This document shows, one piece after another, positions 561 through 23,159 of a stretch of 23,159 nt of DNA. Under the pieces are notes generated by a model. It saw only the letters and a program-made list of their open reading frames with translations, searched no databases and was not told the DNA's origin. Location: NCBI GenBank assembly GCA_004565275.1, contig SDOX01000002.1, forward strand, positions 105,150 through 128,308, in the 5' to 3' direction. Each line of letters begins with the position of its first letter. Position 1 is the stretch's first letter. The stretch comes from Nannochloropsis salina CCMP1776 (taxonomy: Eukaryota > Sar > Eustigmatophyceae > Eustigmatales > Monodopsidaceae). The position numbers and the translations under genes were made by a program.

Positions 561-2243
561 TCACTCGCTCCCGTCCCGCCCAACCTCCCCTTTCCTCTCT
601 TTACCTGATCCTTCTCGCCATCCTTGACTCCCGCCGTCATTCCCTTCCCCACCTCCCCCACTGCCTCCTGCTTCCCTCCGACCTTGCATTCGTTCCTGCC
701 AATCCCGCTCCCAAAAGTCATCCGTGTACACGCTATCCTTCCCTTCCCCCCCACCTCCCTCCCCGTCAGGCGGGTGAAACCAGTAGTTCAAGGCCACGTG
801 TACGCCCCCTTTGCTGTGAACGTGGTGGAACCATCCAGCGGGGAGGTAAAGCATTTCCCCTTCCTGCACCTCCACCTCCAGAGGAGGGTGCCGAGGGAAG
901 GCGGGAAAGAGGGCGGGGTCCACGCCATCGGAAGCGGTCAGGTCGACGCGACTGAAATTTGCAGGGGGCTTGCCCGTTCGTGCGAAGGTGGTGCTTGGCA
1001 AGGAAGGAGGAAGCGGGGGAGGGAGGGAGGGAGGGAGGGGCGAGCCCGACTGTGGCGCTTGGGGCCGTGGAAATTCTTCCTGATCGCTCGCCGCGTCCTC
1101 CTCCTCTTCCTCTTCTTCTCCCTCCTCTCCTTCCTCTCCTTCCAACTCCGCATCCAAAACGGCCTCCAATGCTGCCTCCAACGCCTCCTCCTCGCGCTCC
1201 ATCCCTCCCTCCCTCCCCCCTTCCCTCTCTGACCGTCGCGCCACTTCCTCCAACCTTCTGGCCGCCTCCCAGGCTTTCACTGCATTCTTCTCCCTCCCAT
1301 CCGCACAGGTTAACGGCTGACCGTAGTAATTCAAACGACCGTTACCGTGGACCAACCTTAGCTTCCCGAAGGTGTACATATTTGGAGCCTCCGACGGCGC
1401 GTACAGGCGGAAAACCTTGCGTCCGCCCAGAAGTATGTACAAATTGTCGTGATAATCGTGGTGAAGGCCGCTGCTGCTTTCTCCCTCCCGCCCTCCCTCC
1501 CCATGCCCGCTCCTACCCATCCACAAATTCATGTTCTGAGGCACAAGGAGCCGAAGGAGGGAGGGGCGGAGGGGAAGGTCCCCCTGCAGCTCCGTCAAGG
1601 GGCTGGACATGAGGGCTGGTCGGTCATCCGGACCGATATCTAGCTCTTGCGTTGTCTGTTCAAGATGGGAGTGTGCGAGTTTGGACGGATGAGAGACAGG
1701 CTCTATCCCCCCCCCCCAACGCCTCGGCCACACCATGCTCCCGGGCCCCTCCGACGGCCCACCCCCTCAATCCCTCCCTACCAGGTAGAGAAGCTGGTTC
1801 TCCTTGTCCACCACCTCCGTGACAAATTCCTCGAAGAGCATGGTCGTTTCTTTCCCCTGGCCGTATTCCTCCCGTGTGTTCTCGCGCGTCTCCACCCGTA
1901 CTCGCGCCTTCCCTGCTTTGCTCTTTAAGTACTTAGGGTCTTTCCACAAGGTCCCTGCCCGCCACTGTTGGTCTGGGAGTGTACCACGTATCAAAACAGG
2001 CTTTCGGGGTGCTATATATTGACGGAAAAACGCGAGCGGGGCCTGGCGTTCTCCATGCGTAGACAAGAAGACTGGAAGGTCAATCGCCTCGACGGTGGTT
2101 GTACCCGGTGGAGGGACGTAGCCGCGGTAGTTGTTGATGCATGGGAGGTCCTGGGAAGGTGACGGCTCTTGCGCTTTGTTTTTTTTCCTCGGTGGAGAGC
2201 CTGGTGGGGTTAAAGAGCCGAATGTCGCGGGCGTTGCAGTCAT
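561..2243 (-). CDS. JmjC/cupin_8-domain oxygenase-like protein
   Basis: Exons on the - strand are 2243-1782 and 1655-561, joined in phase 0 across a 126-nt GT-AG intron. They give 518 residues. The product resembles Fe(II)/2-oxoglutarate-dependent JmjC hydroxylases or demethylases of the cupin_8 type. The N-terminal half has the family feature PRKPVLIRG near residue 80. The core has NLWMG, then LHHDYHDN with the iron-binding His219-x-Asp221, then ILLGGRKVFRLYAP. The distal histidine is in GWFHHV (about 431-432), after GEMLYLPAG. A Lys/Arg-rich PPRKKNK near the N-terminus may be a nuclear signal. Between the two halves of the core lies an extra low-complexity segment of roughly 120 residues with Gly-Arg-Glu, poly-Glu and Pro-Ser-Leu-Pro runs. 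It may be a cryptic in-frame intron (see findings). The substrate cannot be told from sequence. ATG at 2241-2243 is the first in frame. Confidence 0.8.
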
Positions 2244-2548
2244 GCGCCTGCAACTGCGTCTGATATGTTACACGGGGGGTAGGGGAAATAGGTGTGTATG
2301 CTTTAGACACGAGTCAGCTTCATCCCGTAAAAATGGATAAAAATAATAAAGTAAACTTTAAGGGCCATTTAAATTAAATCTTCACCATCAGTCTTCCTCG
2401 GTGTCTTTTTTGTTAAACGTTGAAGGCGACTTTTTTTGGTACGGTTTGAGGTAGATACTTCTATATTACGAGAACATCGCAGCAAAGTAAAATGGTGCAA
2501 AGCGAAATGGCGCAATGCATGTGTGCCTTTTGACAAATATAGTCACCA
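2244..2548. promoter_or_regulatory. 5' flank of the JmjC gene, AT-rich core
   Basis: This 305-nt stretch separates the JmjC start from the stop of the orphan ORF at 2549, so it should hold the JmjC promoter. Its centre (about 2330-2480) is notably AT-rich for this window, with runs such as ATAAAAATAATAAAG. A 15-bp imperfect tandem duplication sits at 2484-2513. I see no gene or RNA gene here. No promoter motif can be assigned with confidence. Confidence 0.35.
2484..2513. repeat. Imperfect 15-bp tandem duplication
   Basis: Two adjacent units, AAAGTAAAATGGTGC (2484-2498) and AAAGCGAAATGGCGC (2499-2513), match at 12 of 15 positions. They lie upstream of the JmjC gene in an AT-rich spacer. This could be a paired protein-binding site or a chance duplication. 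Confidence 0.6.
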
Positions 2549-3130
2549 TTATTCCATGCAAAGCTTTCTGAAAGCGTGATAAGCGGAAGTTTTCTCTTCA
2601 TGTGACCGCTGCTTCCTGTTTCTCACGCTTTGTCCGGGGATCAAAAATTGCGCGAAATACTCCCAGTGATGATGGATGACGGTGGACGCTCTACCGTGGA
2701 TCGCACAGGATATGATGGAATAGATACCCACTGATCCTATGCTCATACCACGCAACATGCCTCCTCGACATAGGAAAAACGCAACTACCCCTCGGTCAGG
2801 ATGTCTCTGGACTTCAAAATACTCTTGATGGAATCCAAACCAAGGAATGGAGTCCATCTTTGTGTTCCACGCTGGGGTCGAAGTCGAGGCTGGAACGAAA
2901 AGGGCGGAGGCCGTGTGGACCGGCGCGGGCTTGGCCGCTTTGGAGGGAAATGAAGCCCATGCCCACGTTGGGTCCTGACGAATCATCGATTTTTCAGGCT
3001 CGCCATGCGTAGTTATCGCTACATGAATAATTTGTAGGAATTGGACCATACTAGATGGTGTGAGCAGATTTTGAAGACTGTAGCTCCACACCCTTGATCC
3101 ATCCACATATGTTGTGATTGTACCTGGCAT
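2549..3130 (-). CDS. Orphan ORF, 193 residues, no recognised family
   Basis: An uninterrupted frame runs from ATG at 3130 to TAA at 2549-2551. It lies in a stretch of average composition with no low-complexity repeats, where a chance frame of this length is less likely than in the GC-rich parts. The predicted protein is rich in His, Ser and aromatic residues. It has a mildly hydrophobic segment near the middle-to-end (GMSIGSVGIYSIISCAI, too polar to call a membrane helix with confidence) and a basic tail (RNRKQRSHEEK). I recognise no domain. It sits head-to-head with the GT64 gene and could be a real small gene, part of a spliced gene, or non-coding. No frame on the opposite strand competes for the same stretch. 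Confidence 0.35.
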   Translation of the reverse strand: MPGTITTYVDGSRVWSYSLQNLLTPSSMVQFLQIIHVAITTHGEPEKSMIRQDPTWAWASFPSKAAKPAPVHTASALFVPASTSTPAWNTKMDSIPWFGFHQEYFEVQRHPDRGVVAFFLCRGGMLRGMSIGSVGIYSIISCAIHGRASTVIHHHWEYFAQFLIPGQSVRNRKQRSHEEKTSAYHAFRKLCME

Positions 3131-3635
3131 GGGAGATGGAAGATCTTAATCTCCCGCCCATCTCTCTGGCTATCTATTAAGTCTCCAAAAGTGAGTCAAG
3201 GACTCGCCTCTTCGCTCCCACTCCGACCTCTGCTCGCGCATGACGTCGTTCCTGGATGTGTCTTGTGAATCTACCTTTGGATAAATCGTGCGGTTTCTTT
3301 TGGAGCTCATTTTTTCATTTCAGGAGTGGGACAGGGTGTAGACAGGGAGCCCTGGGTTCCTCACCAGATCGTTGTGCCCCTCGTGTCCAAGGTCTCGGAC
3401 TTGATGTGCTGTCCTGCTTTCCATCACTCACTGTTCTGAAAATGTTGTCCGATCGATCATGCATCCCAACCCAAACGGGCGTACCCACACAGGAGCCTAC
3501 CCTTTTAAGCTGTGTCGAACATTCATTGGCAGGTGTGAAAAGGTGCGGCGCCAGATTTGGAGCTGAAGGGCACCTAGAAAACCAAAACCGATACAGTTTG
3601 GGGGAAGGAAGCCACGGCCCTTTGGGTTCTGAAGC
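3131..3635 (+). promoter_or_regulatory. 5' flank and probable leader of the GT64 gene
   Basis: These 505 nt lie between the orphan ORF start and the GT64 start codon. A plausible untranslated-leader intron runs from GTGAGTC at 3191 to TTTTTTCATTTCAG ending at 3323 (133 nt), with strong donor and acceptor matches. This would put the transcription start left of 3191, close to the start of the divergent orphan ORF. A short + strand frame at 3256-3684 overlaps but looks like chance. There is no clear TATA box. Confidence 0.4.
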
Positions 3636-6600
3636 ATGCTGTCTTCCTTGTCGTGGCGCAGAGCACGTTCTCCTCCTGTGCTAGGCTCTGAGGAGGGGAA
3701 TTGCCATCATGGGAGCGCCAACAAAGGCGGCACCGGCAGCGGCCTAGGCAGCGGGGTGGGCATTTTGGTCGTAGGAAACCAGGACGAGGCCACGACGGCG
3801 GAGGAGAAGGAGGCCTTGCTCCGGGAAGCAGGGTCCGAGGAGGGAGGAAAGGGAGGAGGAGGGGAAAGCCAAGAGGATGGGGCGTGGCCCCTCTCGGCCG
3901 CCCTCCCTCCCACCCCTACCCTGGAGAGGCCCTCCCTCCCGACCTCCTCCTTGCCCGCCTCCAGCTTGACAGCCTCCAGCTTGACAGGCACGAACGCGTC
4001 CAATTTAACCGTTTCTTTAGGCTCCGGGGGAACGGGCTTGTCCAGGAGAACGACCTCCGCGGCCGCGCTATTGAGTACCGGCCTGGGGGGTTCCAATGGC
4101 GCGAGCACCACTAGCTCGACGACCTCGTCCCCTTCGACGGGCCACACGGGTCCCGCGGGGGGTGGGGCCGCGGGGGGAGGAGGAGGGGGAGGTGGGGGAG
4201 TGGACGGATGGGGTCTGAGAGGGGCGAGCGAGGTGGAGGACGGCTACGAAGAGGGCATTGTGGTGGAGGTAGACAGCACGGGGGGCTTGTTGTGCAGCAG
4301 CAGCAGCACGGAAGGCGTGCCTCGGCCCCGCTCGTTCCGGAAGGGTGCCAAGGACGATTTTGAAGGGCTCTCGGCGGCCTTGACGATGGCGGGGGCTACG
4401 GGCGGGTCTGGGGGGCACGGGAGCGGGATTCCGTCGTCGGAGGAGGGAGGGAAGGAGGGCGGGAGGGAGGTGCCGGCGTCCCGTGTGTTTTGGTCCCCTC
4501 ACCATTTGTACTTGCGCGCGCTTTCCTTTGTGGGGGGGAACGGATTCGGACGGCGAACAGGAGGCAACGCAAAGGACGAGAGCTCCTCCTCCTCCTCCTC
4601 CTCCCCGTCCTCCACCGCTGCTTCCTCCCTCGGCTCGTCTTTGGCCCCGCCGGGGGCGGCGTTGGAGAAGGAAATGTCCCGGGGGGAGCGCGCGGAGCTA
4701 CTGGGCGGGGAAGGAGGGGCCAATGCGGGCACGCCCACGAGCCGACTCGGTCATTCCCTCCTCTTCCCCAAGCACCACGGTCCCCGACCGTTACATTCGT
4801 ACGCCCTGGCCCGGGCTTTTGAAAAGAAACGGCTGGCGGTGTTGGCCGCGTGGCGGCATCGATCGAAACTCTCCCTTTTGATCACGTGTCCCCTCCTCGT
4901 CCTCCTCCTCCTGGTCGTCACCTTAACCTTGGTATCCAGGAGCGGTGCTGCCGCGGCGGGAAAAGCGGAGAAAGAACTGGCCTCGGCCTACCCTGGGGCC
5001 GCCGCCGCCTTGTTGGAAGGAGGAGGGGCGCCGGAGGCATTGGCGCGGCAAAAGTTCACGGTGATTGTCAACACTTACAAGCGCCACGACATGGCGAAGG
5101 ACGCCGTCCGGCATTACGCCGCCTGCGGGAAGGTGCATGCCGGGCGGTCTGAGGGGGGAGGGGAATGGAGGGGAACGGAGGGGAAGGGGTGGTGGTCAGT
5201 CGTGTTTTTTTGTTGGTGTCATGGCTTGTGGTGGGGCAATGTCCTCCTCTTTTTTTCCCCCCCTTTCCCGTGCCCCGTCCCCTCTCCCTCTTTCACCTGA
5301 CTACACGCTGATCAGCCTTTGCTTCCTTCCTTCTTCCCTCCCTCCCTCCCTCCCTCGCTTGCTCAGGTGGATGCGATCCGAGTCGTGTGGTCTGAGAACG
5401 AGACCGCGCCTCCCTCCCCGTTGGAGGAGAAGGACAGGGCGTGGTTCAGTGACCATAAACCCGTTTTCTACGATACGTATGCCACCACGAGTTTGAATAA
5501 CCGTTTCGTGCCCCCGGCGGGCAAAAAAGGCCGGGACAACGGTAGGTGAACCTTTGCGATGCAGAGTCTGGGCGATTGGTGCCATGAATTCTGGAAGGAA
5601 GGTCTTGTGTGAGAGTTGTTATCATGCATGATGGAGGGTGTTTGGAATGGCTTCTCGGGCTGACGGCTTTCGTTGGAGGGTGTGTTCTATCCATGCCCTC
5701 CTTCCCGTCTCAATGCTTTTGTATCGTTACCTTCTGCGTAGCGCTTGACTTCCACCCGTTCGAGGAAAATTTAATTTCCTTATTGACACCACACTTATCT
5801 TTATTTTCCTGTCCCCCCCCTCCTGTCCCCTCCCTTCTAACCCACCCTCAGGCTTGGCCACCGACGCCGTCTTCGCCGTGGACGACGACATCCGGGTACC
5901 CTGCTTGGACCTGGAGTTTGCCTTTGGCGTCTGGAAGGCGGCCGATCAATCGTTGGTGGGTTTTATGCCGCGGGTCCATACTGTGAATCCCGCTGCGTTG
6001 CGTGCGGTGGCGGAGAGGGAAGGGCTCAGGGAAAAACGCCGGGTGGAGAGGCGACGACGGAACGGCCGGAAAAAGAAAATAAGAGGGGGGGAGATGGAAG
6101 AGGCAGGGACGGGGGAGGAGGAGGAGGGGATGGAGATGGACAGCGAAGACGTTGAGGCGATGCCCCCTCTCTTTCGATACAATGGGTGGTGGAAAGTGTG
6201 GTGGGAAGGCGAATATTCCCTGATTCTGACCAAGGCAGCGTTTTTGCACCGGGACTTTCTCCGGGCGTACACGGAAGAAATGCCGGCGGCGATTCGGAAT
6301 TACGTGGACGAGAACCGGAATTGCGAGGACATTGCCATGCAATTCTTGGCTGCGAACATGACGGGAAAACCACCCATTTTTGTCCGAGGAAGACTGACGG
6401 ATTTGGGCGTCTTCAATGGTAGGGCATTGGAGAAGTCGGAGGTGCATGCAGGACTAGGCTTTCCCTGTTTCTGGATGGGTGGGCGGGCTTCTCCCTGAGA
6501 AGTGAACCGTATGCCTCCCCTCGTTATCTTGCTTAACTCAAAAATGTGTTTGTCGGTCGTGGTGCATATCATCCACTTGTCGTATCCAGAGGCGTTACGC

Positions 6601-7044
6601 TCGTTCACGGCCCTGGGATGCACCTCATCTAGAGAGGGCTGGCGGTTGCCCGGCGTCGATGTGTGGGCGGGTCGCTCACCTGCGTCTCTCCCTCCCTTCC
6701 TTCCCTTCCTCCTTCCCGCCCTCCTTGCAGGCATCTCCACCAAGAGTTGGACGCAGCTCGGGCACATGAAGAGCCGAGGGCAGTGTCTGAACGACTTTGT
6801 GGGTCTGTACGGCGGTCGCATGCCTTTGGTGATGGGAAGTGCGGTGGCTGGTCCGACGGGGAGCCTCCTCTTTGGTCGGCCGTCCACCGTTTTCGATTAT
6901 TTCTCGAGCGACGTCCTGCTCGGTTCAGGGGGAGGGGGTGGGGGAGGAGGGGAGGGAGAGCGGAGGCGGCGGGGACGGGCGTTACACCTGATACCCTTGC
7001 TGGCGGTCTTCCTGTTGATCGTGGTGAAGCTCACCTTCTGGTAG
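3636..7044 (+). CDS. GT64 family (exostosin-like) glycosyltransferase
   Basis: Exons 3636-5132, 5367-5541, 5852-6418 and 6731-7044 join in phase through GT-AG introns of 234, 310 and 312 nt and give 850 residues. The C-terminal half is a GT64 catalytic domain, as in the C-terminal part of animal EXT/EXTL proteins and in plant GT64 enzymes that glycosylate inositol phosphoceramides. It shows FTVIVNTYKRHDMAKDA, VDAIRVVWSENE, the sugar-nucleotide/metal motif VDDDIRVPC (DDD about 568-570), VGFMPRVH, NRNCEDIAMQFL (about 713-722) and CLNDFVGLYGGRMPL. A hydrophobic segment at about 411-436 should anchor it as a Golgi/ER type II protein behind an unusually long, Ser/Gly-rich, roughly 410-residue cytosolic region. 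The extreme C-terminus is a second hydrophobic stretch (LIPLLAVFLLIVVKLTFW). A highly charged insert of about 55 residues sits at 607-660. An in-frame TGA lies just upstream of the chosen ATG. Donor and acceptor sugars are unknown. Confidence 0.88.
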
Positions 7045-7437: not shown

Positions 7438-7443
7438 AATAAA
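7438..7443 (+). terminator. Candidate polyadenylation signal AATAAA of the GT64 gene
   Basis: AATAAA lies within CCCAAATAAAGCG. It is correctly oriented for the GT64 transcript, which would then have a 3' untranslated region of roughly 400 nt. A single hexamer match can occur by chance. Confidence 0.4.
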
Positions 7444-7919: not shown

Positions 7920-9981
7920 CTACTCCTTCTCCTTGGGCGGCGGGACCGCAATCACCCGCCCTTCGTGCGTCGCCCCGTCCCACAAGAACACATTCAAGGC
8001 CGGCTCCCCCTTCCGAGAGATGGCTTTGAGGATTTCTTGACCGAGGATCCCGCCTACGACCGCGCAGACGGGCGAGAGCTCGCTCTGACTCTGCCTGGCC
8101 AGGGCCCTGTTTGGCAGTGGAGAGGAAGGAGGGAGGGTCGGATGGAAAGGAGGGAGGGGGGGAAAGAGGGTACCAAACATACAATTGAACGGCTCATTCA
8201 TTTCCAGTCCCATTCCTTCTCCTCTTTCGACCTCATCTATCGTGACCCCACGCCCACCTTCCCCCTTCCCTCCCTCCCTCCCTCCCTCCTCGTCGCCCCT
8301 CTATTGTGCTCTTCCACCCAGAAGCACCCCGTGACCCTTCCTCCCCTTCCTTTCCTTAGCTCCCTTCAACCTTCCTTCCTCCCTCCCTGCCTCCATCCCA
8401 CTCTCCCTCCCTCCTTCCCTTCCTCCTCCCTCACCGTAGCTCCTCCTCACTCAAAAATCCTGCCTCCAACCCGTTCGCGCCCATGGCGAGCTGACTTTCC
8501 GACACGAAAACCTCGACGCTCTCTTCCGTGGCATTAGGAGGGAATGGGCCACTGTGACGTTCCTCGTACAGGCCTAGGACTGAGGGATATGGAGAGGGAG
8601 GGAGGGAGGAAGGGCGACCGAGGGTCGGAGGAGGGAGGGAGAAAGGAAGGGCGGGGTCAGGAAATAGTATGAGCCTGCGGCATGAACAGACTCGCTGAAT
8701 GTAAGGGTATTAAATGTCCTGTCATCCTCTTCTCCTTCCCTCCCTTCCCCTCCCTTTCTTCCCCCTCCCTTCCCTTCCTCCCTCCTACGTCGGGCCATGA
8801 CGAAGACGCGCGGGACTGGGAACCGGGACTTGAGGGCGGACCAAGGGACCGCTAAAGCGTCGGAGAGCGACGGATAGGCAAGGGTGAACTCGCGAGGAGG
8901 CAGGGGCTGCAGGAGGGAGAGGAGAGAGGGGAGGAGGGAGGGAAGGAGGGAGGGAGGGAGGGAAGGAGGAGGGGGTGAAGGGACGGACTGTCTTGGGCAT
9001 CGCGTCCACCGCCCACGCCTCCCTCCTTCCTTGCACCTACCTTAGCTCCCCCCCCCTCTCCATTTTTCCCCTCCGTCCTTCCTCCTTCTGGCGCCTCGTC
9101 CATCCGGCCAATAAAGCTCTCGCCCAGGTCGATGAAGGCCCAGGCGTGGAGCCCAAAAGTAACCGCGCAAAGGAACCCGCCCCCCTCCCGCCCTCCTTCT
9201 TTCCCTCGTTGTCGAGCCAGAGTATCCAGACGCCGCATCTGCGCGGGGGTAAGGTCGGTGCCGACAATCACGTCGAAATCGACGAAGAAGCTGTCTGGAT
9301 AGGCGCTAGGGTCGCTGGGGTGACAGGCGACAGAGGCGAGGGGGTTCATCGCTTGGACGCCGGGGAGGCAGGCCTCGGCACGCTTGATAGGGAGGAGACA
9401 GGGGCATTGTGAGGGGGAGAAAGGAAAGGAGGGCGATTGGGATCCAGAGGTACGAGCCCGTGGTGACGACCTTGAGGTTGTCGTCCCGGGCCCTCTTCCC
9501 CATATTGCAAGCACTTACATTCATGCCTACGTGCTCCGGCCGAAGGAAAAATTGAGCCCCTAAATCTTCTGGTTTCACCGTCTCGGCGTCCATGAGGGTG
9601 ACGTTGATGCCGGCCAATATCACATTCTTGCAGATCTACCCCGTCGCATGACGGCGTGGAAAGAGGGCAAGAGGAATGTGGGAAATCATATGCTTCTTTC
9701 GCCTTTTTACTTTACTTATTATATTTTTTACCGACACTCCACCCAGAATCTTGCTAAATAATACTTATATCTCCCGGGAAGCATTTCCACGTAATTTCCC
9801 GTACTTTTTCTTCATCCCTCTGTAACCTCCTGACGATTACGCACCCTTAGCAAAGTCTTACCTCTGCTCCCAGTGCCCGCAACCCGCAAAACAGCACCCG
9901 CGCCTCCTGCATGCGTTTTTGTGCATCTAATCCCCACAACCGAATTTGACGGTCGTATACCTCGGATGCGTTCATGGTCAT
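7920..9981 (-). CDS. SAE1: SUMO-activating enzyme subunit 1 (SAE1/AOS1)
   Basis: Six exons on the - strand (9981-9862, 9635-9519, 9382-9041, 8906-8789, 8573-8435, 8106-7920) join in phase to 340 residues, close to the human protein (346). SAE1 pairs with UBA2/SAE2 to form the nuclear E1 that adenylates SUMO and passes it to UBC9. The catalytic cysteine is on UBA2. Diagnostic features in order are YDRQIRLWGLDAQKRM (9-24), GLRALGAEICKNVILAGI, the strand/turn VTLMDAETVKPEDLGAQFFL, DFDVIVGTDL, CAVTFGLHAWAFIDLGE, YPSLSDALAVPWSAL, and SPVCAVVGGILGQEILKAIS near the C-terminus. Residues about 137-148 carry a Gly-Arg-Glu-Gly insert made by a GGGA repeat inside exon 3. Two in-frame ATGs, at 9981 and 9975, are possible starts. 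Introns 3, 4 and 5 start purine-rich and end pyrimidine-rich. The gene diverges from TRM112. Confidence 0.95.
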
Positions 9982-10532
9982 TTCCCTCCTCTCCCCTGTG
10001 GAAGCTTTCCAGGTCCAAAGACTGCGTGGAAAGAAAATTGGAAGATGGCGAAAGCCGAAAATAATTGTCTTATTTATAAAAGCATGGGGGATGGAAGTGT
10101 GCATTTCATTCCTCTTTAAACTACCTGGTAGACTGAGGCAGACAAAATTGCAAGAATTGCTTAGGAGGAATACCTTCGCTGCCAACGGTTGGCGAGACGT
10201 GGTGTTATTTCCACCCAGAAAAAATGATTTTCGAGTGATATACCTCACTCGCTGCCAGCCACGAACCCATGATATGTGAATAGGGGACTGCGAAGATATT
10301 TGTTTCCATTGAGTGGAAGTTGAGAGAATCAGGGTCGCAGAGGCTCCAGCCGGCACCCGACAAACAGCAATTATTATACTAGGAGTCGGGGTCCAACGCA
10401 ATATAGAGCCTGCGGTGCCTGTCACAGCTAACTTATGCTTCTCCGTGATGTATTACACACCTCTTCGCCTTTTCCACGCGATAGGAACGACCCACTTCGA
10501 TTTCCACGTCTCCTTGAAAAGCGTCCCGCCTG
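9982..10532. promoter_or_regulatory. Divergent promoter region of SAE1 and TRM112
   Basis: These 551 nt separate two start codons facing away from each other. The stretch is AT-richer than its surroundings. On the - strand TTTATAAATA (about 10071-10080) lies about 90 nt upstream of the SAE1 start and could act as a TATA-like element. The - frame of SAE1 exon 1 happens to stay open back to 10425, but that extension has no family similarity, so I treat it as untranslated. No clear element is visible for TRM112. Confidence 0.45.
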
Positions 10533-11083
10533 ATGCGCCTCCTCAGCCACAATGTCCTCCGCAATACCGCCAAGGGCGTGGTGGATGGCTACCCTTTGAA
10601 GATCGAAGCTGCAGAAATTGATGTACGTGCTCCGGTATAAGGAAATGGAGAATTTTCAGACTATCAATGGGTCGAAAACAAGGTTTTGTTCGGCTTCTTT
10701 CTCCCAGTGCATGCGTCCAGAACGAAAGTCCCCGAGGCAAGCCTTTGGGGGAATCTCTCCTTGATGCATCCACCTACCCGCACATTTTCCCGCAGGTCCG
10801 TGACACAGAGCCTGACTTGACATTCATTCGGCATCTCTTACCGACGATATCCTTTTCAGGGCTGCGGTCGGCTGCGGAAGACTTGGGGCTAGATGCGGCA
10901 GCTTTCCCCGCCTCCTATTCCACGACATTGGGAGAGGACGAGGCTTTCTTGAGGGCCTTGCACAAGGCATTGTTCGACGTGCGCGTGTTGGAGGGCTCGT
11001 TGGTGTGCCCAGAGAGCGGGAGGAGGTTTTCGATCCGAGGAGGCATACCAGACATGATGTTGACGGATGAGGAGTTGAGTTGA
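10533..11083 (+). CDS. TRM112: TRM112-like multifunctional methyltransferase subunit
   Basis: Exons 10533-10622 and 10796-11083 join in phase 0 over a 173-nt GT-AG intron, giving 125 residues, exactly the length of human TRMT112. TRM112 is the small activating partner of several SAM methyltransferases that modify tRNA, 18S rRNA and release factor eRF1. The N-terminus MRLLSHNVLRN and GYPLKIEAAEI match the family. They are followed by FIRHLLPTI, EDEAFLRALHKALFDVRVLEGSLVCPESGRRF and IRGGIPDMML. Of the four zinc-binding cysteines in the yeast protein only the one in CPESG remains, so the protein is probably zinc-free as in human. ATG at 10533 gives the conserved N-terminus directly. Neighbours show no functional link. 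Confidence 0.95.
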
Positions 11084-12081: not shown

Positions 12082-13611
12082 ATGGCGAGGCGCTACGATT
12101 CGTCGACGACCACATTCTCACCCGAAGGTACATTAATATCCCTACTTTCTGCCGTCTCCGATCAGACTTGCCCTTTCAGTGCCCTCTGAGCTTGGTGTCC
12201 TTTCTTTCCCTTTTCGCCCTGCTAGTCATTCTATGTACAAGTCGAGAGATCACGTTGAAAGAATGACTACTCATAATATCGGTTGTGGCTTGTCCACGAC
12301 ATTTATCCTTCGGGGGGGACGTACAGGCCGTCTACACCAGGTGGAGTATGCCATTGAAGCTATCAACAACGCAGGTACCTGCGTTGGTATTTTATGCAGT
12401 GACGGCATCGTCTTGGCAGCGGAGCGAAAGACCACAAGCAAGCTCTTGGCCCCCTCAAAGTCCAGCGACAAGATATACCAGATCGACGGACACATCGCTT
12501 CTGTGGTGGCGGGACTGACCTCCGATGCCAACATCCTGATCAATCAAGGTGCGTCGCCAGAGACATCCAAAAAGGAACAAAGAACTTCAAAACTTCGATG
12601 CATAGGAGACGATCATACTCGACCCTGCAGGAAGGAGGCTGACCACCTTTTATCAGCGGCCTGCACCTTTGTATATGTGTACGCTCCATCAGGCCGGAGT
12701 GCCCTCGAATTTAACCCCCCCCTATGCCCTTTTCCTCTTACCTCTGTCCGCACACGACCTTCATTATCTTTTCATCATGAAAGCCTCGTGCAACTGACCT
12801 GGAGCCATCTGGCTTTTTCTCTTCTCTTTCCCTCCGTCTTTCCCGCAGCACGCCTCTCTGCCCAACGGTATCTCTATCAGTACCAGGAAGCCATGCCTGT
12901 GGAGCAACTCGTCCGGTCGATCTGCGACTACAAGCAAGCTTATACGCAATACGGGGGCCTGCGCCCTTTCGGTGTTTCCTTCCTTTTCGCCGGTTATGAC
13001 AGGTAGTTGTCTTTTTTTCTTCCTCCCTCCCTTCCTCACTATGCATGTACCCCAACTGACGAGACGCCTCCACGTTTCCCTCCCCTTCACATTCCTTTCC
13101 CCCCCCTTCCCATGGCCCTTCCCCCTCCAGGCATCAAGGCTTCCAACTCTACGAGTCGGATCCGGCAGGCACCTTTGGGGGCTGGAGCGCCACGGCCATC
13201 GGCGCCAATTTCCAAGCGGGGAAGAGCCTGCTCAAGAATGAATATCCGGAGGGGGGGAGACCTTCCGTGCAGGAGGGCTTGACCCTGGCGGCGAAGGTGC
13301 TTCTGAAGACTATGGATACCACTATTCCCTCCGCGGAGAAGGTGGGAGGGAGGATGGGAGGGAGGGAGGGCGTAATTCCATGCTATCGGGACAGCGACGG
13401 AGCCTTCGCATTCATCACCCCTTCCCCCTCCCCTTCTTCCTTCCATTCCCCTTCCTCCCCCTCCTTCTCTTGGACCAATCAGGTCGAGTTCTTCACCCTG
13501 ACGGCCGGGGAGAAGGAGGGACGCGTCGTACACACCACCCTGGCTGCCGACAAGACCACCTCCTTGCTCGAGGAAGTGAGCGCAAGCACATCGCCGGAGG
13601 GGGATATGTAG
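12082..13611 (+). CDS. PSMA4: 20S proteasome subunit alpha type-4 (alpha3)
   Basis: Exons 12082-12127, 12327-12548, 12849-13002, 13131-13341 and 13483-13611 join in phase through GT-AG introns of 199, 300, 128 and 141 nt, giving 253 residues (human 261). The protein is a non-catalytic outer-ring subunit of the 20S core, acting in cytosol and nucleus. The N-terminus MARRYDSSTTTFSPEGRLHQ followed by VEYAIEA is the alpha-subunit signature. Next come GTCVGILCSDGIVLAAERK, KIYQIDGHIASVVAGLTSDAN, QRYLYQYQEAMPVEQLV, KQAYTQYGGLRPFGVSFLFAGYD and GFQLYESDPAGTFGGW. All of these are close to the type-4 subunit rather than other alphas. The usual Lys/Glu-rich C-terminal tail is replaced by a short Ser/Thr-rich end (SASTSPEGDM). 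The last intron opens with GTGGGAGGGAGG and closes with a long CT tract. The gene is convergent with squalene monooxygenase. Confidence 0.96.
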
Positions 13612-16433: not shown

Positions 16434-17580
16434 GTGGGCGCTCGGTGGAGATACTTGCTCGTGGGCACGCCACAGAGCCGCCAAACTGCCCAACATTGCC
16501 AATCTAGCAAGCGACTCCCGACGCTTAAGCTGACTGTGTCGTACCCTGCGCACTGCCCAAACGTCTCCTTCCAAAAACCGGAGACCAATCGCCTGTACTG
16601 TTGTTGTGTGCCAAAGATGTAAGGGACATCATCAGTGGCAGGACGGAGCGAAACGAAACAAGCCGGAACAAACTAGTGTTCTTTTCCCACCAGGCGAAAA
16701 CCATGTGGACAGGGCCAATGCGGCGACCACGCCAGCCGCGTGGGGTAGTAAAAAGGGAGCCGAAAAGGAGCAGTAGGCACAGAGCAAGTTCCTTCCATGC
16801 CTTCATTAACGGTAGCAATGGCCACACCCGAATATACAGACGCCCGCCGGCCTTCTATGAGATGCGGCATGGCGGAGTAAATTGTGCTGCGGAAAGAGAG
16901 CAGGGTGAGTCATCATCTCTGTCGGATCGAGACAAGGCGGCTCGATCCGATCTGCTCTCTCTCACCCTACGGTGATGTCGGATGCAGATGTTTTATGTAT
17001 GTTGTGCAGCCGTGAGCGAAGGGCCACTGAATTTTTAAGTGAAAATACGATACTATGGTAGGATATTGGACATGTTGGTGGCCGAGTGCGCTTTAAACTT
17101 TGAATGAGGCGCTGACTAACCCGCACCATCTATTGCGCGGTGATATTTCTCTTTTGCGGCTGTGAAAAATTTATCACGACGCGAGAAAAAATATGACTGT
17201 CATAGGCGGTAGATTAAATGATCAAAGCCAGTGAATTACATGTCAAGTGTAAACAACCAAAGGATCCGATCCTAAAAGAGCCATACTCCACGGCCCATGC
17301 GGCGGCACGCTTTCCTCTACATTCTATCACCTGACGTTTCTTTGCCAGGCACGGCACGTTGTCTTTCGTTGTGGCTTGCAATGATTATAAGGCCACAATA
17401 ACAGTAAATTTGGCTTGGTGATTTGTAAAATGCACAGGATACATTACATCTGCGCTATGTGATCGATCGCCTCGACAGCTCGAATTCCCCTTCCCTTTCC
17501 ATGTTCTCGTCATTCCCTTGGACTTGATGTGCAGTGTCCCCAAGGCTCACCAATGCGCGCTCTCTCACTTCACCACATGT
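16434..17580. other. Intergenic region: SQE promoter side and WD40 gene 3' flank
   Basis: About 1.15 kb lie between the SQE start and the WD40 stop. The SQE promoter should lie near 16434-16700. The centre holds a strong two-part inverted repeat (16902-16968). From about 16975 to 17480 the sequence is AT-richer and free of GGGA/CCCT tracts. An open frame at 16601-16975 on + has no family features and ends inside the inverted repeat region, so I do not call it a gene. I found no tRNA-like B box or other RNA gene by eye. Confidence 0.45.
16902..16968. repeat. Two-part nested inverted repeat (possible hairpin or cruciform)
   Basis: The inner arms TCGGATCGAG (16922-16931) and CTCGATCCGA (16941-16950) are perfect 10-bp inverted repeats around a 9-nt loop. 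The outer arms AGGGTGAG (16902-16909) and CTCACCCT (16961-16968) are perfect 8-bp inverted repeats, separated from the inner stem by 12 and 10 unpaired nt. It lies between SQE and the WD40 gene and is clearly unlike the GGGA/CCCT tracts. Confidence 0.75.
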
Positions 17581-20500
17581 TTAATCCACCGCAATGCTTT
17601 CCTCCTCCTGCTTCAGGCCACCATCACCGTTCGCCTCACCTCCTTCTTCATCCCTCTCCTCCTCCTCTCCTCCAACGCCTGCGTAGTGCTCAGAGCCCAA
17701 GATTTCAAGCCCCCCCCCAGAGAACCCCAACACCACGTGCTGCGTCGTTGGATTGATGGCCAAGCACGCAAGCCACGACGCGTCGCAGGGAAGCGTGCCC
17801 AACAATGGCGCATATCGCCTGCCGAGGGACGAGGAGGAGCGAGAGGAGGAAGAGGAAGAGGAAGAGGAAGAGGCAGAGGAAGGAAAAGGAGAAGAGGAAG
17901 GTGCACTGTAGATGGGGCGGAGAGGCGCGAGAACAAGGGGGCCCTCCCCCCGCATGGACGTGGCTTCCACATCCCGGTGAAACTCCTCCCGCACCTCCAC
18001 CATCGTCCCCCTCCCCTTCCCTCCCTCCCTCCCTCCTTCTCCCCCTCCCTCCCTCCCTCCCTCCTCCTCGTGCTCTATTGGCCACAGGTCGTTGACCGTG
18101 TATACTCTCCCTTCGATCTTGACCCGGGAGGCCCGCTGTCCTCTCCTCACTTTCCCGTCCCCCGCCCATCCCGCGACGCCCCAACGCGACCCTTCGCTTC
18201 CTCCCCCCCTCCCGTCCTCCCTCCCTCCCTCCGCTTCTTTCCCAGCAGGGAGGGCCGGGCACAGGTAATGGTGGAGGATAGGACAAGAGGACCGAAACGA
18301 ACGCCCTCCCTCCTTCGCCCAGACGATCTCACCGGGCAAGGTCAGGTTGAACCCGCCCCCTCCCTCCCTCCCTTCCTCCCTCCCTTCCTCCTCTTCCTCG
18401 TCTGTTTCCTCCCTGAAAGCCAATCTCGGCGCCCACTGCCCCCGTCGGCCCTCTTCTCCATGCCCTCCTTTCTCGATCACGTACACATTCGTCCGCAGGC
18501 TATCCGCCTCCTGAATGACGCACACCTCGCGACGGTGCAACCTCCCCACCCAGGCCCCGTCGCAACGGTCCACTGCCAAGGCCCCTCTTCCCCTCCCTCC
18601 GTCCCTCCCTCCCTCCTTCCCTCCTTCCCTCCCTCCTCGATCGCCCACTCGAAACATGTGCCCGGCCTCCGTCACACACACGACAGCCTCCAGGCAAGCC
18701 AGGCAAGAGGAGGTGGGGGCGGGGCCGGAGGGCGGGAAGGAGGGCGGGAAGGAGGACGGGGGGGAGGGACACGCCAATGCCCGGACATGGCCCCCCACCT
18801 CGATGCGCAAAAGGAGGGGCGGCGCAGGGACGGCCCCCAAGACCGGGATTTGCAGCCGGTGGACGTTCCAGACGTACAAGACGTCGGTCCCTCCCTCCCC
18901 TCCTCCGCCCCCTCCTCCCCCGCGACCTGCCCCGGCACCGGCCGCAGCGCCCACCACCAGGGGGCCGCAGACACAGAGGGCGGTCAAGGGACCGTTTCCA
19001 CGCGTCTTCACTTCCCACGCCGCGCTCTGGGGGCAGCCCAACTCCCACCCCCTCAACACTCCGTAGGCGCTGCCAGCCAGCAACATCCGGGTATCCTTTC
19101 CTTCCCGACCCGCGAAGGCCAGGGCGTGGTTGCCGCCCGCGGCCCCCCGGACCCGGTGCCCGACTCGGTAGACGGCGGCAGGGAGGGAGGAAAAAGTGTC
19201 CAAATCGTACACATAGACGTCCGGCCAGTGCCAAAACGCCACCGCCACCTGCGTGTCCTCCCAGGGGTTCCACTGGAGGGAGGAAATGGCCCGCCGGGGC
19301 GCCAGCGTGAGGATGGGGGGGTGGTAGGAGGGCTCAGGGCAGGAGGGAGGAATCGGGGCGGGGGCAAGACCGGGGACGGGGGGAGGGATCTCTGGAGGTG
19401 GTGCGGGTGGGCCGGAAGTGGAAGGGATGGAGGGAGGGGGGGCCCGGCGCCGGGCGGGGCGCGTGGCAATGAGGGAGAGGAGCTCGTCGAAATCAAAGAT
19501 ACGGATGACGCCATGCGTGCTCCCCACGGCCAGAAGGGCGCCCATGGGGTCGAATTCCATCACAGAGGGGGGGTCCGGGACACTTGATGCGGTCCATCCC
19601 CCTTCCAAGCCAACCGGGGAGGGAAGGAGGGAGGGAGGGAGGGAGGGAGGGAGGGTGGAGGAAAAAGGTCGGAGCCGCCGGGTCAAGAGATGGGCGGCAG
19701 CGCGTCGTGTTTGTGCTCCACAGGTGCCAGTCTGGTAGTGCGTGTAAAAATGGCGCCAATGACGCAAAGCGCCTGGAGGTTTGTGCGGCGCAGGGCCCGG
19801 GAGGGGGGGGCAGCGGAAGGGAGGGCGGGCGGGGCAGAGATATGAGAGGATGCCAGCTTTGTGGTCTGCGTTGGCCGGTATTTTCCTTCCCGGCCGCGTC
19901 TCGTTCCTGGGAAGAGGAGAAATTTTCTCTCGCCCACGGTGTTTCTCATCCCGGTCGGAAAGAGAGGCCCGCCAGGCGTCGGCATCCACAAAGGCGGGCG
20001 AGGTGGCGGAGAGAACAACGTCATTGCGAATATCGGACGTTGTTATACTACATAATGCGCTCCCTGCTGCCTGTATCGGTGCTTCCGTTGGCGGTGCGGC
20101 GGCTGTGACGCCAGAAGAAGCCACGGCAGAGGAGGAGGGAGGAGAGGTGGAGGACGAGGAGGAGGAGGAGGAGGAAGAAAAACAAGGGTCCCATGATAGT
20201 CTTTCGATTCCCTCATCCTCTGGTGCTGCTCTTGATCCTGGTCCTTCTCCCACCGTGGCAACAGGGGCAGGCCGTGACGACGGTGCCTCCGGGACTGTTT
20301 CCCTCACCACCCTTCCCTCGGCTTCTCCCAGTCTGCGCCGCTTTTTGATGACGCAAGGAGTGGATGACGCTGATGAGAGGTGGAGCTCCGAGGCTGTAAG
20401 GTTGCGGGCGGAAATCTCGTACAAACGGCTCAAGAGTGGATCCTCCCTATCGCTCTCCCATTGCTCCCCCGCGTTTCCTCCTGATAGAGCTGCTCCCGCT

Positions 20501-20907
20501 GCGCTGGCCGGACCGGTGGCTTGCATTTTTGTGCATCCACGCACTTGATTTGTAAGAAGCATGCCCTTGTGACTTTCTTGGCCGGAAAGTTGGCACAGGG
20601 GAGGAGAAATTGGCTGAAGCTGAACAGGGGACGAGGGAGGGGAAGGTGAAGGAGAGACCGTGTCTACGACATTGTGAAAACGCACTCTTCCATTTCCTTT
20701 GTCCAGCTGCGAAACTTCCTTTTTTGAGGGTAAATTGGAAGTTATCTCTGCGTTCCTTTTTTTTCCTGCATTTCCTGGCAAGGGTGTCGGTGCTGGGTTG
20801 TCGGTGTTGCCCACTACAAAGAAGGAGCGGATGCTCTGGTTTTTCAGCGCTACAGGCATACAAATTTGTCGTCGGGGCACTGTCCTCCTGTCACTGGCGC
20901 GCTTCAT
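17581..20907 (-). CDS. Large WD40-like protein with low-complexity inserts
   Basis: One open frame from ATG at 20907 to TAA at 17581-17583 encodes 1108 residues. WD40-type blades are visible: EFDPMGALLAVGSTHGVIRIFDFDE (about 450-475), ISSLQWNPWEDTQVAVAFW followed by DVYVYDLDTF (about 540-572), LLAGSAYGVLRGWEL (about 607-625), DVLYVWNVHRLQIP, and ASWLACLAINPTTQHVVLGFS near the C-terminus (about 1041). The N-terminal 430 residues are disordered-looking, with a poly-Ser run, a basic cluster KKRRR that could be a nuclear signal, and near residue 23 NQSIRSFF, which resembles a PCNA-binding PIP box. Gly-Arg-Glu-Gly and Pro-Ser-Leu-Pro runs mark GGGA repeat insertion at several places. Some of these could be unrecognised introns, so the exact protein is uncertain. 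I cannot name the family. A nuclear scaffold or ubiquitin-ligase adaptor is only a guess. It diverges from NUP107. Confidence 0.7.
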   Translation of the reverse strand: MKRASDRRTVPRRQICMPVALKNQSIRSFFVVGNTDNPAPTPLPGNAGKKRNAEITSNLPSKKEVSQLDKGNGRVRFHNVVDTVSPSPSPPSSPVQLQPISPPLCQLSGQESHKGMLLTNQVRGCTKMQATGPASAAGAALSGGNAGEQWESDREDPLLSRLYEISARNLTASELHLSSASSTPCVIKKRRRLGEAEGRVVRETVPEAPSSRPAPVATVGEGPGSRAAPEDEGIERLSWDPCFSSSSSSSSSSTSPPSSSAVASSGVTAAAPPTEAPIQAAGSALCSITTSDIRNDVVLSATSPAFVDADAWRASLSDRDEKHRGREKISPLPRNETRPGRKIPANADHKAGILSYLCPARPPFRCPPLPGPAPHKPPGALRHWRHFYTHYQTGTCGAQTRRAAAHLLTRRLRPFSSTLPPSLPPSLLPSPVGLEGGWTASSVPDPPSVMEFDPMGALLAVGSTHGVIRIFDFDELLSLIATRPARRRAPPPSIPSTSGPPAPPPEIPPPVPGLAPAPIPPSCPEPSYHPPILTLAPRRAISSLQWNPWEDTQVAVAFWHWPDVYVYDLDTFSSLPAAVYRVGHRVRGAAGGNHALAFAGREGKDTRMLLAGSAYGVLRGWELGCPQSAAWEVKTRGNGPLTALCVCGPLVVGAAAGAGAGRGGGGGGGGEGGTDVLYVWNVHRLQIPVLGAVPAPPLLLRIEVGGHVRALACPSPPSSFPPSFPPSGPAPTSSCLACLEAVVCVTEAGHMFRVGDRGGREGGKEGGRDGGRGRGALAVDRCDGAWVGRLHRREVCVIQEADSLRTNVYVIEKGGHGEEGRRGQWAPRLAFREETDEEEEEGREEGREGGGGFNLTLPGEIVWAKEGGRSFRSSCPILHHYLCPALPAGKEAEGGREDGRGGGSEGSRWGVAGWAGDGKVRRGQRASRVKIEGRVYTVNDLWPIEHEEEGGREGGGEGGREGGKGRGTMVEVREEFHRDVEATSMRGEGPLVLAPLRPIYSAPSSSPFPSSASSSSSSSSSSRSSSSLGRRYAPLLGTLPCDASWLACLAINPTTQHVVLGFSGGGLEILGSEHYAGVGGEEEERDEEGGEANGDGGLKQEEESIAVD
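19617..19656. repeat. GGGA tract inside the WD40 coding frame
   Basis: A near-pure run of GGAGGGAGGG on + reads as CCCT units on the coding (-) strand. It encodes a Pro-Ser-Leu-Pro run between the disordered N-terminus and the first WD blade. If it is intronic instead, it would act as a polypyrimidine tract. Confidence 0.7.
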
Positions 20908-21299
20908 CTTTTCCAAGCTATCCTGGCGAAGAAATGGGGAAAGACACCGTCAGTTCCCTCCCTCGTGTTTCAAATTTGCCACACGGAGGGAAAATAACCC
21001 GATTTTCCCAAGGCCCTCGCTAGCACGAGGCAGCGATGCCACAGAGAGATCAATTAAAAAAAGGATGAAGTAACGCGAAGAATAACCCCCGTCTCCGTCA
21101 TTTGTACTCATTGGTCTACCACGCATATTACTGTTTCTTGGCACGTTTTGTGCGCACAGGCAGAGGCGTTCAAGGATCGAGAACCCTTGTCCGCTTCCTC
21201 CCATTAACCTCATCAGGCACAGGGAGGAGGAAACCAACCTCAGACACCCCGGAGAGCCCACAAGACAAACTTCCTCCCCATTTCCCTCCTCCTGAGGTG
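20908..21299. promoter_or_regulatory. Divergent promoter region, WD40 gene and NUP107
   Basis: These 392 nt lie between the two start codons and should carry both promoters. The stretch is of average composition and lacks GGGA/CCCT tracts, with an A-rich patch CAATTAAAAAAAGGATG at about 21050. The NUP107 frame remains open upstream to about 21102 but contains no earlier ATG. No specific motif is assigned. Confidence 0.45.
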
Positions 21300-23106
21300 A
21301 TGCCTGCTCTCGCGCTTGGGCGTGGGAGCGTGCAGGCGGAAGAGGTCAGTCTCCAAGCCGATTTTCACGCCATTCTTGCTGAATATGTGCGTGAGCATCG
21401 ACTGTACGCCTTCCATCCTGATTTCGAGGTGCGCTTCGCGCCCGAAGAGAAATTTTTAAAGGCAGCTGAGGACCGCTTGCGGGAAGCAGCACAAGGCGGG
21501 AGGGAAAATGTGGGGAAAAACGGCGGACGCGGGGAGTCAGGAAAGGAGCGGCACGAGGAGCTAGCTACGGCCAGAAAGTGGGAGGTGGAGGCGGACTCAT
21601 GGATGGTAAGAAGAAGGTTGGCAAAATGCCTGGGAGGTAAACCGGCGCTACGAATTCACGTACTCACGTCGCATTATCTGAATCTTCTGTGCATCTACTT
21701 TCCTGTCTCAGCTCCTGCAACTCCGCCGGGAGGACTTGGATTATCCGAGTATGGGGCCCTTTCGGTCATCGCCTCAGGCATTGATACCCGGAGAAGTGAA
21801 AGAAATGGAAGACGGGGAGCTCGAGAGCGAGGGCTTGGTCGAGAGGAGCATGCTTAAGGTGGGTGAGAAGGGGGGGCGGGAGGAAGGGCGCGAGATGCAG
21901 GGATAGGGTATCCTCCTCCCGCGGTCAATCCTGACCTCCCTCCCTCCCTCCCTCCCTCCCTCCCTCCCTCCCTCCCTCCCTCCCTCCCTCCACTCCATCC
22001 TCCCCCCTTTCTTCTTTTCCAACTCCCACACTCTTCCAGGTCTTGGAAGACTTTCTCAACCATCGCAAGGAGTTTCGGCGGCTGGTGTTGCTGGTGACCT
22101 GGCTCGAGCTGCTGCGGGAGAGGGACCTCTGGATGCTGCGTGACGAGATCGATGGGCTGGTAGGAAGGGAGGGAGGAAGGAAGGAGGGGAGGAAGGAAGG
22201 AAGGGAGGGAGGGAGGGAGGGAGGGAGGGAGGGGGGAGAAAGGCATGACTGGGATAAATCAGTGCCAACAGCTAGTCGTCCATTTATAGCCTCCCCTCCC
22301 CTCCGCCCTCTCTCCCTCCCTCCCTCCCTCCCTCCCTCCTCAGGAGGGCGGCTACGACATGTGGCCCTCCACGTGCCAGCGGGAAGGAAGGGTGTGTCTG
22401 GACCCAGACTACCCCCAGCACAGTCGCCGCCCTCTGCTGCCCGTGGATGAACGGCAAGATTTCCTCCTTCTGGAACGGATTTGGCGGTACGCCCTCCCTT
22501 CCTCCTCCTCACGCTTCCCCCTCGATCACCCTCCCTCTCTCTCTTTCCTCTCCATCGTGACTTCCCTCCCCATTGTTTCGCGCTCCTCCTCACCTCGCCC
22601 CTCCTTTCTCCCTCCCTACCTCCCTCCTTCCCTCCCTCCCTCCCCTAGCTTTCTCCGCGCGGGTAGATTGGATGACGCCATCGACCTCTGCCTCCGTTGC
22701 GGCCAGTATTGGCGAGCCGCCTCCATCAGTGGGGGGGACCCCTGGGAGGTGTTTGTGCCTGAAGGTAGGGAGGGAGGGAGGGAGGGAGGGAGGGAGGGGG
22801 GGAAAAGGAGGGAAGGACGGGGAGAATGCCGTTTTGGGGGGCGTGTGGATGCATGCATGTTTTTTTTCCTGAAAGAAAAAAAGACAAAAGCCTAACCTTT
22901 CTCCTTTGGCAACATCCCTGCACTCTTTCCCACCAGACCTGGACCGAGGGAGGGAGGGAGGGAGGTCGGGCCGAAGACGAGGGGCGGGCGCAGTGTGGGT
23001 GAACAATCTCCGACCATTGTTGTGGAGGAGGATGTGCGCGACGCTGGCGGAGACCCTGTGGCGGGAGGGTTCCAGCCAGAAGGAGAAGAGCCTGAAGATG
23101 GAGCGG
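21300..23106 (+). CDS. NUP107: Nucleoporin NUP107/NUP84, N-terminal part (runs off window)
   Basis: NUP107 (yeast Nup84) is an alpha-helical scaffold member of the Y-complex of the nuclear pore. Exons 21300-21605, 21712-21858, 22040-22159, 22344-22486, 22649-22764 and 22937-23106 join in phase, giving 334 residues before a donor (GTGAGG) at 23107. The gene continues to the right. Family features are LEDFLNHRKEFRRLVLLVTWLEL in exon 3, RPLLPVDERQDFLLLERIW ending exon 4, and FLRAGRLDDAIDLCLRCGQYWRAAS in exon 5, the most diagnostic segment. WVNNLRPLLWRRM in exon 6 corresponds to the family GNP..LWK region. The first 100 residues are charged and poorly conserved, as usual. ATG 21300 is the first in frame. 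Exon 6 opens with a Gly-Arg-Glu-Gly stretch from a GGGA tract, and an alternative in-frame acceptor (GGCGCAG, ending about 23000) could skip it. Confidence 0.9.
21935..21991. repeat. CCCT tract in NUP107 intron 2
   Basis: This is a pure CCCT array of about 14 units, 48 nt before the acceptor ending at 22039. It forms the 3' half of an intron whose 5' end is G-rich (GTGGGTGAGAAGGGGGG). Confidence 0.95.
22160..22343 (+). other. Intron with complementary GGGA and CCCT ends
   Basis: NUP107 intron 3 is 184 nt. Directly after the donor GTAGGAAGGG it runs into GGA/GGGA repeats, pure at about 22203-22233. Just before the acceptor it carries a CCCT tract (about 22313-22340) ending CCTCAG. The two pure arms can pair over roughly 28 bp around a loop of about 80 nt, placing the splice sites side by side. 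Confidence 0.85.
22766..22802. repeat. GGGA tract abutting a 5' splice site
   Basis: A pure GGGA array of about nine units starts right at the donor GTAGGG of NUP107 intron 5. It contains many consecutive G-triplets and meets the pattern for a G-quadruplex on the transcribed sense strand. Confidence 0.95.
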
Positions 23107-23159
23107 GTGAGGGCGGGAGGGCGGGAGGGAGGGAGGGAGGGAGGGAGGGAAGGGACGGA
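23107..23159 (+). other. Partial NUP107 intron 6 opening with a GGGA tract
   Basis: The donor GTGAGGGCGGG at 23107 is followed by GGGA repeats to about 23150. The window ends inside the intron. It again shows the purine-rich 5' end. Confidence 0.75.

Follow-up and report, generated by a model that had tools for sequence, protein, structure and literature searches.

The stretch of DNA analysed here, which is called the window throughout, comprises the 23,159 bases at positions 105150-128308 of contig SDOX01000002.1 (C55; 1,343,167 bases) of the eustigmatophyte Nannochloropsis salina CCMP1776, whose genome amounts to 26.5 Mb in 103 contigs, and the subject is a set of introns in it that start with a GGGA tract and end with a CCCT tract. 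Six gene models, namely a JmjC/cupin gene, GT64, SAE1, TRM112, PSMA4 and NUP107 (cut by the window end), contain 19 complete introns, all of the GT...AG type (19/19). A preliminary description of the locus had arrived at the same total in six genes, and the nine introns that it listed as beginning with purine tracts proved to be GT...AG introns with exact coordinates. PSMA4 and NUP107 were modelled by hand and are both missed in the window by the gene finder, which for GT64 gives an open exon (3636-5132) followed by the same three introns as the hand model; the other five models contain no internal stops. Pfam matches agree with five of the six genes (proteasome, Nup84_Nup100, ThiF, Cupin_8/JmjC_2 and Trm112p, GT64 being left out), the Trm112p match lying at 20.8 bits, under the cut-off of 22. 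Alignments to solved structures span the exon junctions of PSMA4 (residues 1-233 of 253) and of SAE1 (residues 6-331 of 338). The search of the window for structured RNA found no Rfam family at gathering score.

The analysis of tract orientation was based on the number of GGGA- or CCCT-family tetramers in the first and last 60 nt of each intron, or in a smaller span where the intron was short; the 6 bases at its start and the 4 at its end were not counted. An arm was considered strong when it held at least 5 tetramers, a threshold that scattered tetramers may also pass (12128-12326, 9636-9861), and R5/Y5 and R3/Y3 denote purine/pyrimidine tetramers at the 5′ and 3′ ends, respectively. Purine and pyrimidine tetramers numbered 193/45 in the first 60 nt of the window introns, 62/87 in the middle and 5/277 in the last 60 nt, and strong tracts were R5 in 10 introns, Y5 in 4, Y3 in 13 and R3 in 0. 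At the 3′ end, pyrimidine tetramers exceeded purine ones in 16 of 19 introns, with two ties and one reversal (12128-12326; sign test p = 0.0003). At the 5′ end, purine tetramers prevailed in 14 introns and pyrimidine ones in 3 (p = 0.013), and the strong 5′ ends alone gave 10 purine versus 4 pyrimidine (p = 0.18). Complementary simple repeats occupied both ends of the same intron in 7 of the 19 cases at the threshold of 5, which confirmed the existence of introns that start with GGGA and end with CCCT. The general bias towards GGGA-first order is real, but the claim that it always holds was too strong because Y5 exceeds the threshold in 4 of the 19 introns: 12128-12326 (scattered), 13003-13130, 21859-22039 (beside purine tetramers) and 22487-22648. 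That none is arranged the other way round holds for all 19, in the sense that strong purine tracts are absent from all their 3′ ends. The additional mention of a sense orientation adds nothing beyond order, since an inverted GGGA...CCCT pair reads GGGA-first on both DNA strands; the asymmetry is thus one of order and rests above all on the missing purine tracts before acceptors. The JmjC intron and 22765-22936, described as weaker at the 3′ end, are the two of the nine below the threshold there (2 and 4 tetramers), and SAE1 intron 1 (9636-9861), which was outside that list, passes the 5′ purine threshold.

The pattern is probably the result of one strand-symmetric microsatellite being sorted by the normal requirements of splice sites, and not of a dedicated splicing hairpin. 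The source would be a (GGGA)n.(TCCC)n microsatellite, which abounds in some regions of the genome and is concentrated in gene bodies in the window, and splicing would filter which orientation of the repeat survives at which position of the intron. Close to the acceptor, the TCCC strand would serve as a polypyrimidine tract, or would at least be harmless, and GGGA would destroy that tract. Near the 5′ splice site GGGA would extend the donor consensus (GTRNG here) and resemble G-run intronic splicing enhancers, TCCC being presumably tolerated there and less common. Because the accepted forms are reverse complements of one another, introns that hold both would be self-complementary as a by-product. 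U2AF-like and G-run-binding factors could constitute the filter. The donor matrix (seed sites included) has G at +5 in 77% of sites and either G (42%) or T (35%) at +6, so that a GGGA tract can start right at the donor, as it does in 22765-22936 (GTAGGGAGGG). Introns of the U2 type are pyrimidine-rich over some tens of bases upstream of the AG acceptor and lack purine tracts there. The window introns resemble them in their GT...AG borders and in a pyrimidine-rich 3′ end devoid of strong purine tracts, and differ from them in that this end is largely made of TCCC units, C-rich rather than U-rich, which may nevertheless act as the pyrimidine tract of the acceptor. G runs were reportedly described by McCullough and Berget in 1997 as intronic splicing enhancers of short introns. 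The GGG triplet is presented as an intronic splicing enhancer in the accessible part of a further report (PMC1831480), and the likeness to what that part describes lies in G-triplet-rich sequence within short introns, placed here beside the 5′ splice site; unlike those enhancers, the runs of the window belong to a tetranucleotide microsatellite and follow no rule outside tract-rich stretches.

Pattern searches for tracts beside splice-site-like anchors were made across the whole genome. In the gapped searches, the count was taken on the strand where the fixed anchor comes first, which we read as one count per anchor. Three TCCC units in the 30 nt upstream of CAGG were counted 647 times, versus 257 for the control read backwards, and GGGA units upstream of CAGG 652 times, versus 636 for their control; acceptor-like sites therefore clearly prefer CCCT. 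On the donor side, AAGGTRVG followed within 30 nt by GGGAGGGAGG was found 150 times (control 91), and followed by CCTCCCTCCC at 19 forward and 25 distinct reverse sites (control 10). The less strict anchor AAGGTR, used before AAGGTRVG and hard to read owing to its purine richness, gave 119 versus 85 for GGGA and 28 versus 9 for TCCC. Donor-like sites thus favour GGGA in absolute excess (about 59 vs about 12 per strand) but not in the ratio to the control.

Several results weigh against this explanation. With AAGGTR, the excess relative to the control was larger for TCCC than for GGGA, and the control of the donor counts is itself approximate because AAGGTRVG is purine-rich. Outside the window, the sequence used came to 177,886 bases, 156,748 of them readable and the others N; the rest of the genome was covered by counts and positions from pattern searches. 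The gene finder predicted 49 introns in these pieces (43 in contigs C1 and C2, 6 in C20 and C30), which serve as a rough comparison because its predictions contain errors: in our judgement, part of EPSP synthase is missing from C1_5, C2_10 takes in the end of an intron, and C2_13 and C1_4 look partly wrong. Strong tracts in the 43 introns of C1 and C2 were R5 in 6, Y5 in 4, Y3 in 10 and R3 in 4, with a slight bias at the 5′ end (purine over pyrimidine in 20, the reverse in 15), and those in the 6 introns of C20 and C30 were R5 in 2, Y5 in 0, Y3 in 2 and R3 in 1. Of the 19 multi-exon proteins predicted, 9 were scanned against Pfam (one truncated to residues 1-313), and 15 better-supported introns were selected by us. 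Nine of these lie inside a Pfam stretch (one match below the cut-off), and the other 6 were chosen by their position beside or between domain stretches or for recognised protein families. Their strong tracts were R5 in 3, Y5 in 2, Y3 in 9 and R3 in 0, with both arms in 3; pyrimidine tetramers prevailed at the 3′ end in 15 of 15, and the 5′ bias was not seen (purine in 6, pyrimidine in 7, tied in 2). The 3′ rule looks general and the 5′ rule is unseen in the better-supported introns, and a general G-run rule for donors is accordingly not established by the slight bias in the 43 and its absence in the 15. Strong R3 tracts occurred in 5 of the 68 introns obtained by pooling the 19 of the window with the 49 predicted outside, all five in unsupported predictions, among them a very strong purine 3′ tract of 32 tetramers at C20 1613-1793. 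In this pool, composed mostly of gene-finder predictions, both arms were found together in 11 introns versus 6.62 expected (one-sided Fisher p = 0.014), an excess weakened by the fact that the pool mixes tract-rich and tract-poor stretches: permutation within stretches raised the expectation to 8.9 (p = 0.15). C1 and C2 alone gave 3 versus 1.4 (p = 0.13), and the 34 window and better-supported introns gave 10 versus 8.6 within sets (p = 0.25). A small excess of paired arms would be compatible with these counts.

In the window, exact tracts of at least 11 bases occupy 356 of 3,820 intron bases, 267 of 12,097 exon bases and 86 of 7,242 bases elsewhere; the exon class, which includes the open frame 17581-20526 (981 codons, no Pfam match), has 181 tract bases reading GGGA and 86 reading CCCT on the sense strand, and the repeat is not intron-specific. 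Five of the eight intergenic blocks, with 5,078 bases, contain no such tract. The window held 29 three-unit matches for GGGA and 38 for TCCC in its 23 kb (overlapping starts), versus 0 and 12 in 120 kb inside C1 and C2; shorter pieces of C20, C30, C40 and C55 gave 8 to 21 each and the piece of C3 none. These densities place the window in a tract-rich part of the genome. For five-unit GGGA, the matches listed covered C1 up to 963,520 of its 1,072,967 bases, and among them the interval from about 249 to 841 kb held one tract (three places), although shorter tracts exist within it, for instance near 262-265, 681, 713 and 783-788 kb.

The preliminary description had proposed that the repeat is shaped by splicing or assists it through a stem by which the two splice sites are drawn close to each other, and this interpretation is partly supported: the shaped-by-splicing half stands, since tract orientation follows the splice sites, and the assisting-stem half does not. 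Such a stem, formed by the GGGA and CCCT arms of one intron as reported for the AC/GU repeats of fish, is an unlikely explanation, since the tests able to tell it, as a selected structure, from independent biases at the two ends were negative. In the window, paired arms showed no excess over the product of the single-arm frequencies (7 vs 6.84 expected, one-sided Fisher p = 0.63), an outcome that the preliminary description had itself named as speaking against its proposal; at thresholds of 3, 8, 10 and 15 the observed and expected numbers were 11/10.26, 6/5.05, 5/4.42 and 5/2.84, and the strengths of the two arms correlated with a Spearman coefficient of 0.35 (p = 0.14). The pooled excess described above would favour a stem, but it is not significant within strata. 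Nor was the complementarity pair-specific: the mean duplex energy was -38.9 kcal/mol for matched arms and -38.2 for swapped arms (permutation 0.41), and in the ten introns with a strong purine 5′ arm it was -56.3 and -58.2 kcal/mol, respectively (permutation 0.71). Folding of whole introns showed that the arms can pair on paper, several both-arm introns being more stable than dinucleotide shuffles (z down to -4.3): 22160-22343 reached -4.3 and 8107-8434 reached -4.1, and the values were -2.8 and -4.7 when only thirds were shuffled. In predicted folds of pre-mRNA limited to a span of 600 nt, made for nine strong 5′ arms of PSMA4, NUP107, GT64 and SAE1, with GT64 starting 300 nt before the end of exon 1 and JmjC left out, five arms preferred the 3′ arm of their own intron (PSMA4 intron 4, NUP107 intron 3, GT64 intron 1, SAE1 introns 1 and 4). 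Against this, three preferred the 3′ arm of an upstream intron (NUP107 intron 5, SAE1 introns 3 and 5) and one, NUP107 intron 2, preferred neither; the predicted pairs summed to 100.5 with own and 101.5 with upstream arms. When the pre-mRNAs of NUP107 and SAE1 were folded without restriction, NUP107 introns 3 and 5 and SAE1 intron 5 paired mainly upstream, while the partner was the intron's own 3′ arm for SAE1 introns 1 and 4 and, to a weak degree, for NUP107 intron 1. NUP107 intron 3 thereby switches its predicted partner between fold settings. SAE1 intron 4 pairs with its own 3′ arm in the folds (28.1, 27.0); upstream 3′ arms are the predicted partners of the 5′ arms of SAE1 intron 5 (that of intron 3; 46.5, 46.0) and NUP107 intron 5 (that of intron 4; 44.2, 44.5). 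This split of partners in the predictions makes the stem possible and not clearly preferred, and stems may still form in individual introns. Further, the same genes hold introns that lack arms or carry CCCT at either end, and the predicted fold extends over the 3′ end of some introns, taking in 22 of the final 25 bases of 22160-22343 and 0 of those of 21859-22039 and 8574-8788. In 8 of the 19 window introns the initial 80 nt contain four G3 runs, as a sequence motif only, and a quadruplex could therefore compete with the stem.

The order of the tracts along the genome can be read in favour of the stem at short range and against it at longer range. GGGA-first exceeded CCCT-first at spacings of 30-60 (34 vs 8), 61-91 (231 vs 97) and 92-119 (495 vs 400), but CCCT-first prevailed at 120-150 (937 vs 609) and 220-250 (654 vs 338), these five ranges being the ones searched and long tracts being counted several times, in both orders. 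Although such counts do not tell introns from exons, the switch at about 120 nt would fit closely spaced GGGA and CCCT arms that enclose introns and more distant CCCT and GGGA arms that enclose exons, and it suggests that partners across exons are common. The stem has a direct precedent in fish, where AC/GU repeats lie at the ends of a subset of introns and an effect on splicing was shown with minigenes and mutagenesis; its authors (Lin and others) suggested G-, C- and GC-rich repeats for mammals (PMC7404189, accessible part). The introns of the window share with what that part describes the complementary simple repeats at opposite ends of an intron subset and the possibility of a stem across the intron. 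Unlike the fish repeats, their arms co-occur only as independence predicts, are predicted to pair across exons as well, and fall where polypyrimidine tracts and G runs ordinarily lie. A strand asymmetry linked to transcription, or purine loading, by which GGGA would be favoured on the sense strand and splicing would constrain the 3′ end only, has little probability. The sense strand of exons does carry more purine than pyrimidine tetramers (767 vs 549 in the window, 2063 vs 1471 in predicted exons of C1 and C2), but this bias of 1.4 to 1 compares with 4.3 to 1 at the 5′ ends of window introns, and the intron middles lean the opposite way (62 vs 87), which indicates that position in the intron matters. 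DNA-transposon introners carry terminal inverted repeats, and the inverted ends at the intron borders resemble them; an origin from introner-like mobile elements with GGGA/CCCT termini is nonetheless highly improbable, as the tetranucleotide ends vary in length and phase and the repeat is also present in exons. When the 68 introns were compared by blastn with about 180 kb, simple repeats being masked, the one non-self match was a 19-base CT stretch, and this lack of shared sequence beyond the simple repeat speaks against mobile introns.

If the microsatellite is indeed sorted by splice-site requirements, the locus would be a clear case of splicing signals arranging one repeat by orientation along the transcript and so imitating a designed hairpin. 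It also carries a warning, namely that complementary intron ends call for tests of co-occurrence and of pair-specific complementarity before a function is claimed. A more far-reaching idea, rather improbable on present evidence, is that in tract-rich compartments GGGA/CCCT stems steer splice-site choice: stems within an intron would speed up splicing and relax the need for a polypyrimidine tract, stems across exons would lead to exon skipping or circular RNAs, and the length of the microsatellite would tune splicing. Should stems act, the presence of arms on either flank of exons means that exon skipping and circular RNAs should be sought first. The literature search, which extended to titles and abstract openings and to few subscription papers, found no report of GGGA/CCCT intron ends, an absence that is therefore unproven.

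Table. Introns of the window, with tetramer counts of GGGA (R) or CCCT (Y) type at each end; MFE, minimum free energy of the predicted fold.
Feature	Coordinates	Strand	Length (nt)	5′ end	3′ end	Remarks
JmjC/cupin-8 intron	1656..1781	-	126	purine, 10	weak, 2	
GT64 intron 1	5133..5366	+	234	R5 16	Y3 19	both arms
GT64 intron 2	5542..5851	+	310	none	pyrimidine, 10	
GT64 intron 3	6419..6730	+	312	weak, 3	pyrimidine, 15	
SAE1 intron 5	8107..8434	-	328	25	19	both arms
SAE1 intron 4	8574..8788	-	215	25	27	both arms
SAE1 intron 3	8907..9040	-	134	6	38	both arms
SAE1 intron 2	9383..9518	-	136	weak, 4	pyrimidine, 14	
SAE1 intron 1	9636..9861	-	226	R5 7	weak, 4	5′ tetramers scattered, not one run
TRM112 intron	10623..10795	+	173			no arms
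PSMA4 intron 1	12128..12326	+	199	Y5 6, scattered	none	G7 near acceptor
PSMA4 intron 2	12549..12848	+	300	none	pyrimidine, 5	
PSMA4 intron 3	13003..13130	+	128	pyrimidine, 9	pyrimidine, 13	
PSMA4 intron 4	13342..13482	+	141	17	15	both arms
NUP107 intron 1	21606..21711	+	106			without strong arms
NUP107 intron 2	21859..22039	+	181	R5 8 and Y5 5 in first 60 nt	strong, Y3 20	
NUP107 intron 3	22160..22343	+	184	35	37	strongest both-arm case; MFE -111.7 kcal/mol
NUP107 intron 4	22487..22648	+	162	CCCT-type, 19	CCCT-type, 33	MFE -2.3, practically no stem
NUP107 intron 5	22765..22936	+	172	strong, 32	weak, 4	
NUP107 partial intron	23107..23159	+		begins GTGAGGGCGGGAGG		cut by window end; read directly

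PSMA4 intron 1 is the sole intron of the window in which purine tetramers outnumber pyrimidine ones at the 3′ end; a G7 run lies in its last 20 bases and no pyrimidine tract precedes the acceptor. Tract copies are also found in frame within exons, both in the window (1017-1039, 1202-1217, 18018-18636 and 19626-19655) and in predicted genes of C2, C20 and C30, and these exonic copies encode low-complexity repeats of the REGG or SLPP type. The tract-free intergenic blocks (2244-3635, 9974-10532, 11084-12081, 16226-17580 and 20527-21300) have a G+C content of 0.48-0.51, compared with 0.63 in exons and 0.56 in introns. On a larger scale, 97 of the 100 five-unit places listed for C1 lie outside 249-841 kb (at about 0-249 and 841-964 kb), and the tract places of C2 are mostly below 250 kb among the matches listed; this clustering toward contig ends may reflect subtelomere-like compartments. 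Inverted tracts 30-60 nt apart (34 + 8) are far rarer than those 120-150 nt apart (609 + 937), and close inverted GGGA/CCCT tracts look as if they were avoided or lost. Finally, an imperfect hairpin with nested complementary arms lies in intergenic sequence at 16892-16963, where a 121-nt fold has a z of -2.5 relative to shuffles.

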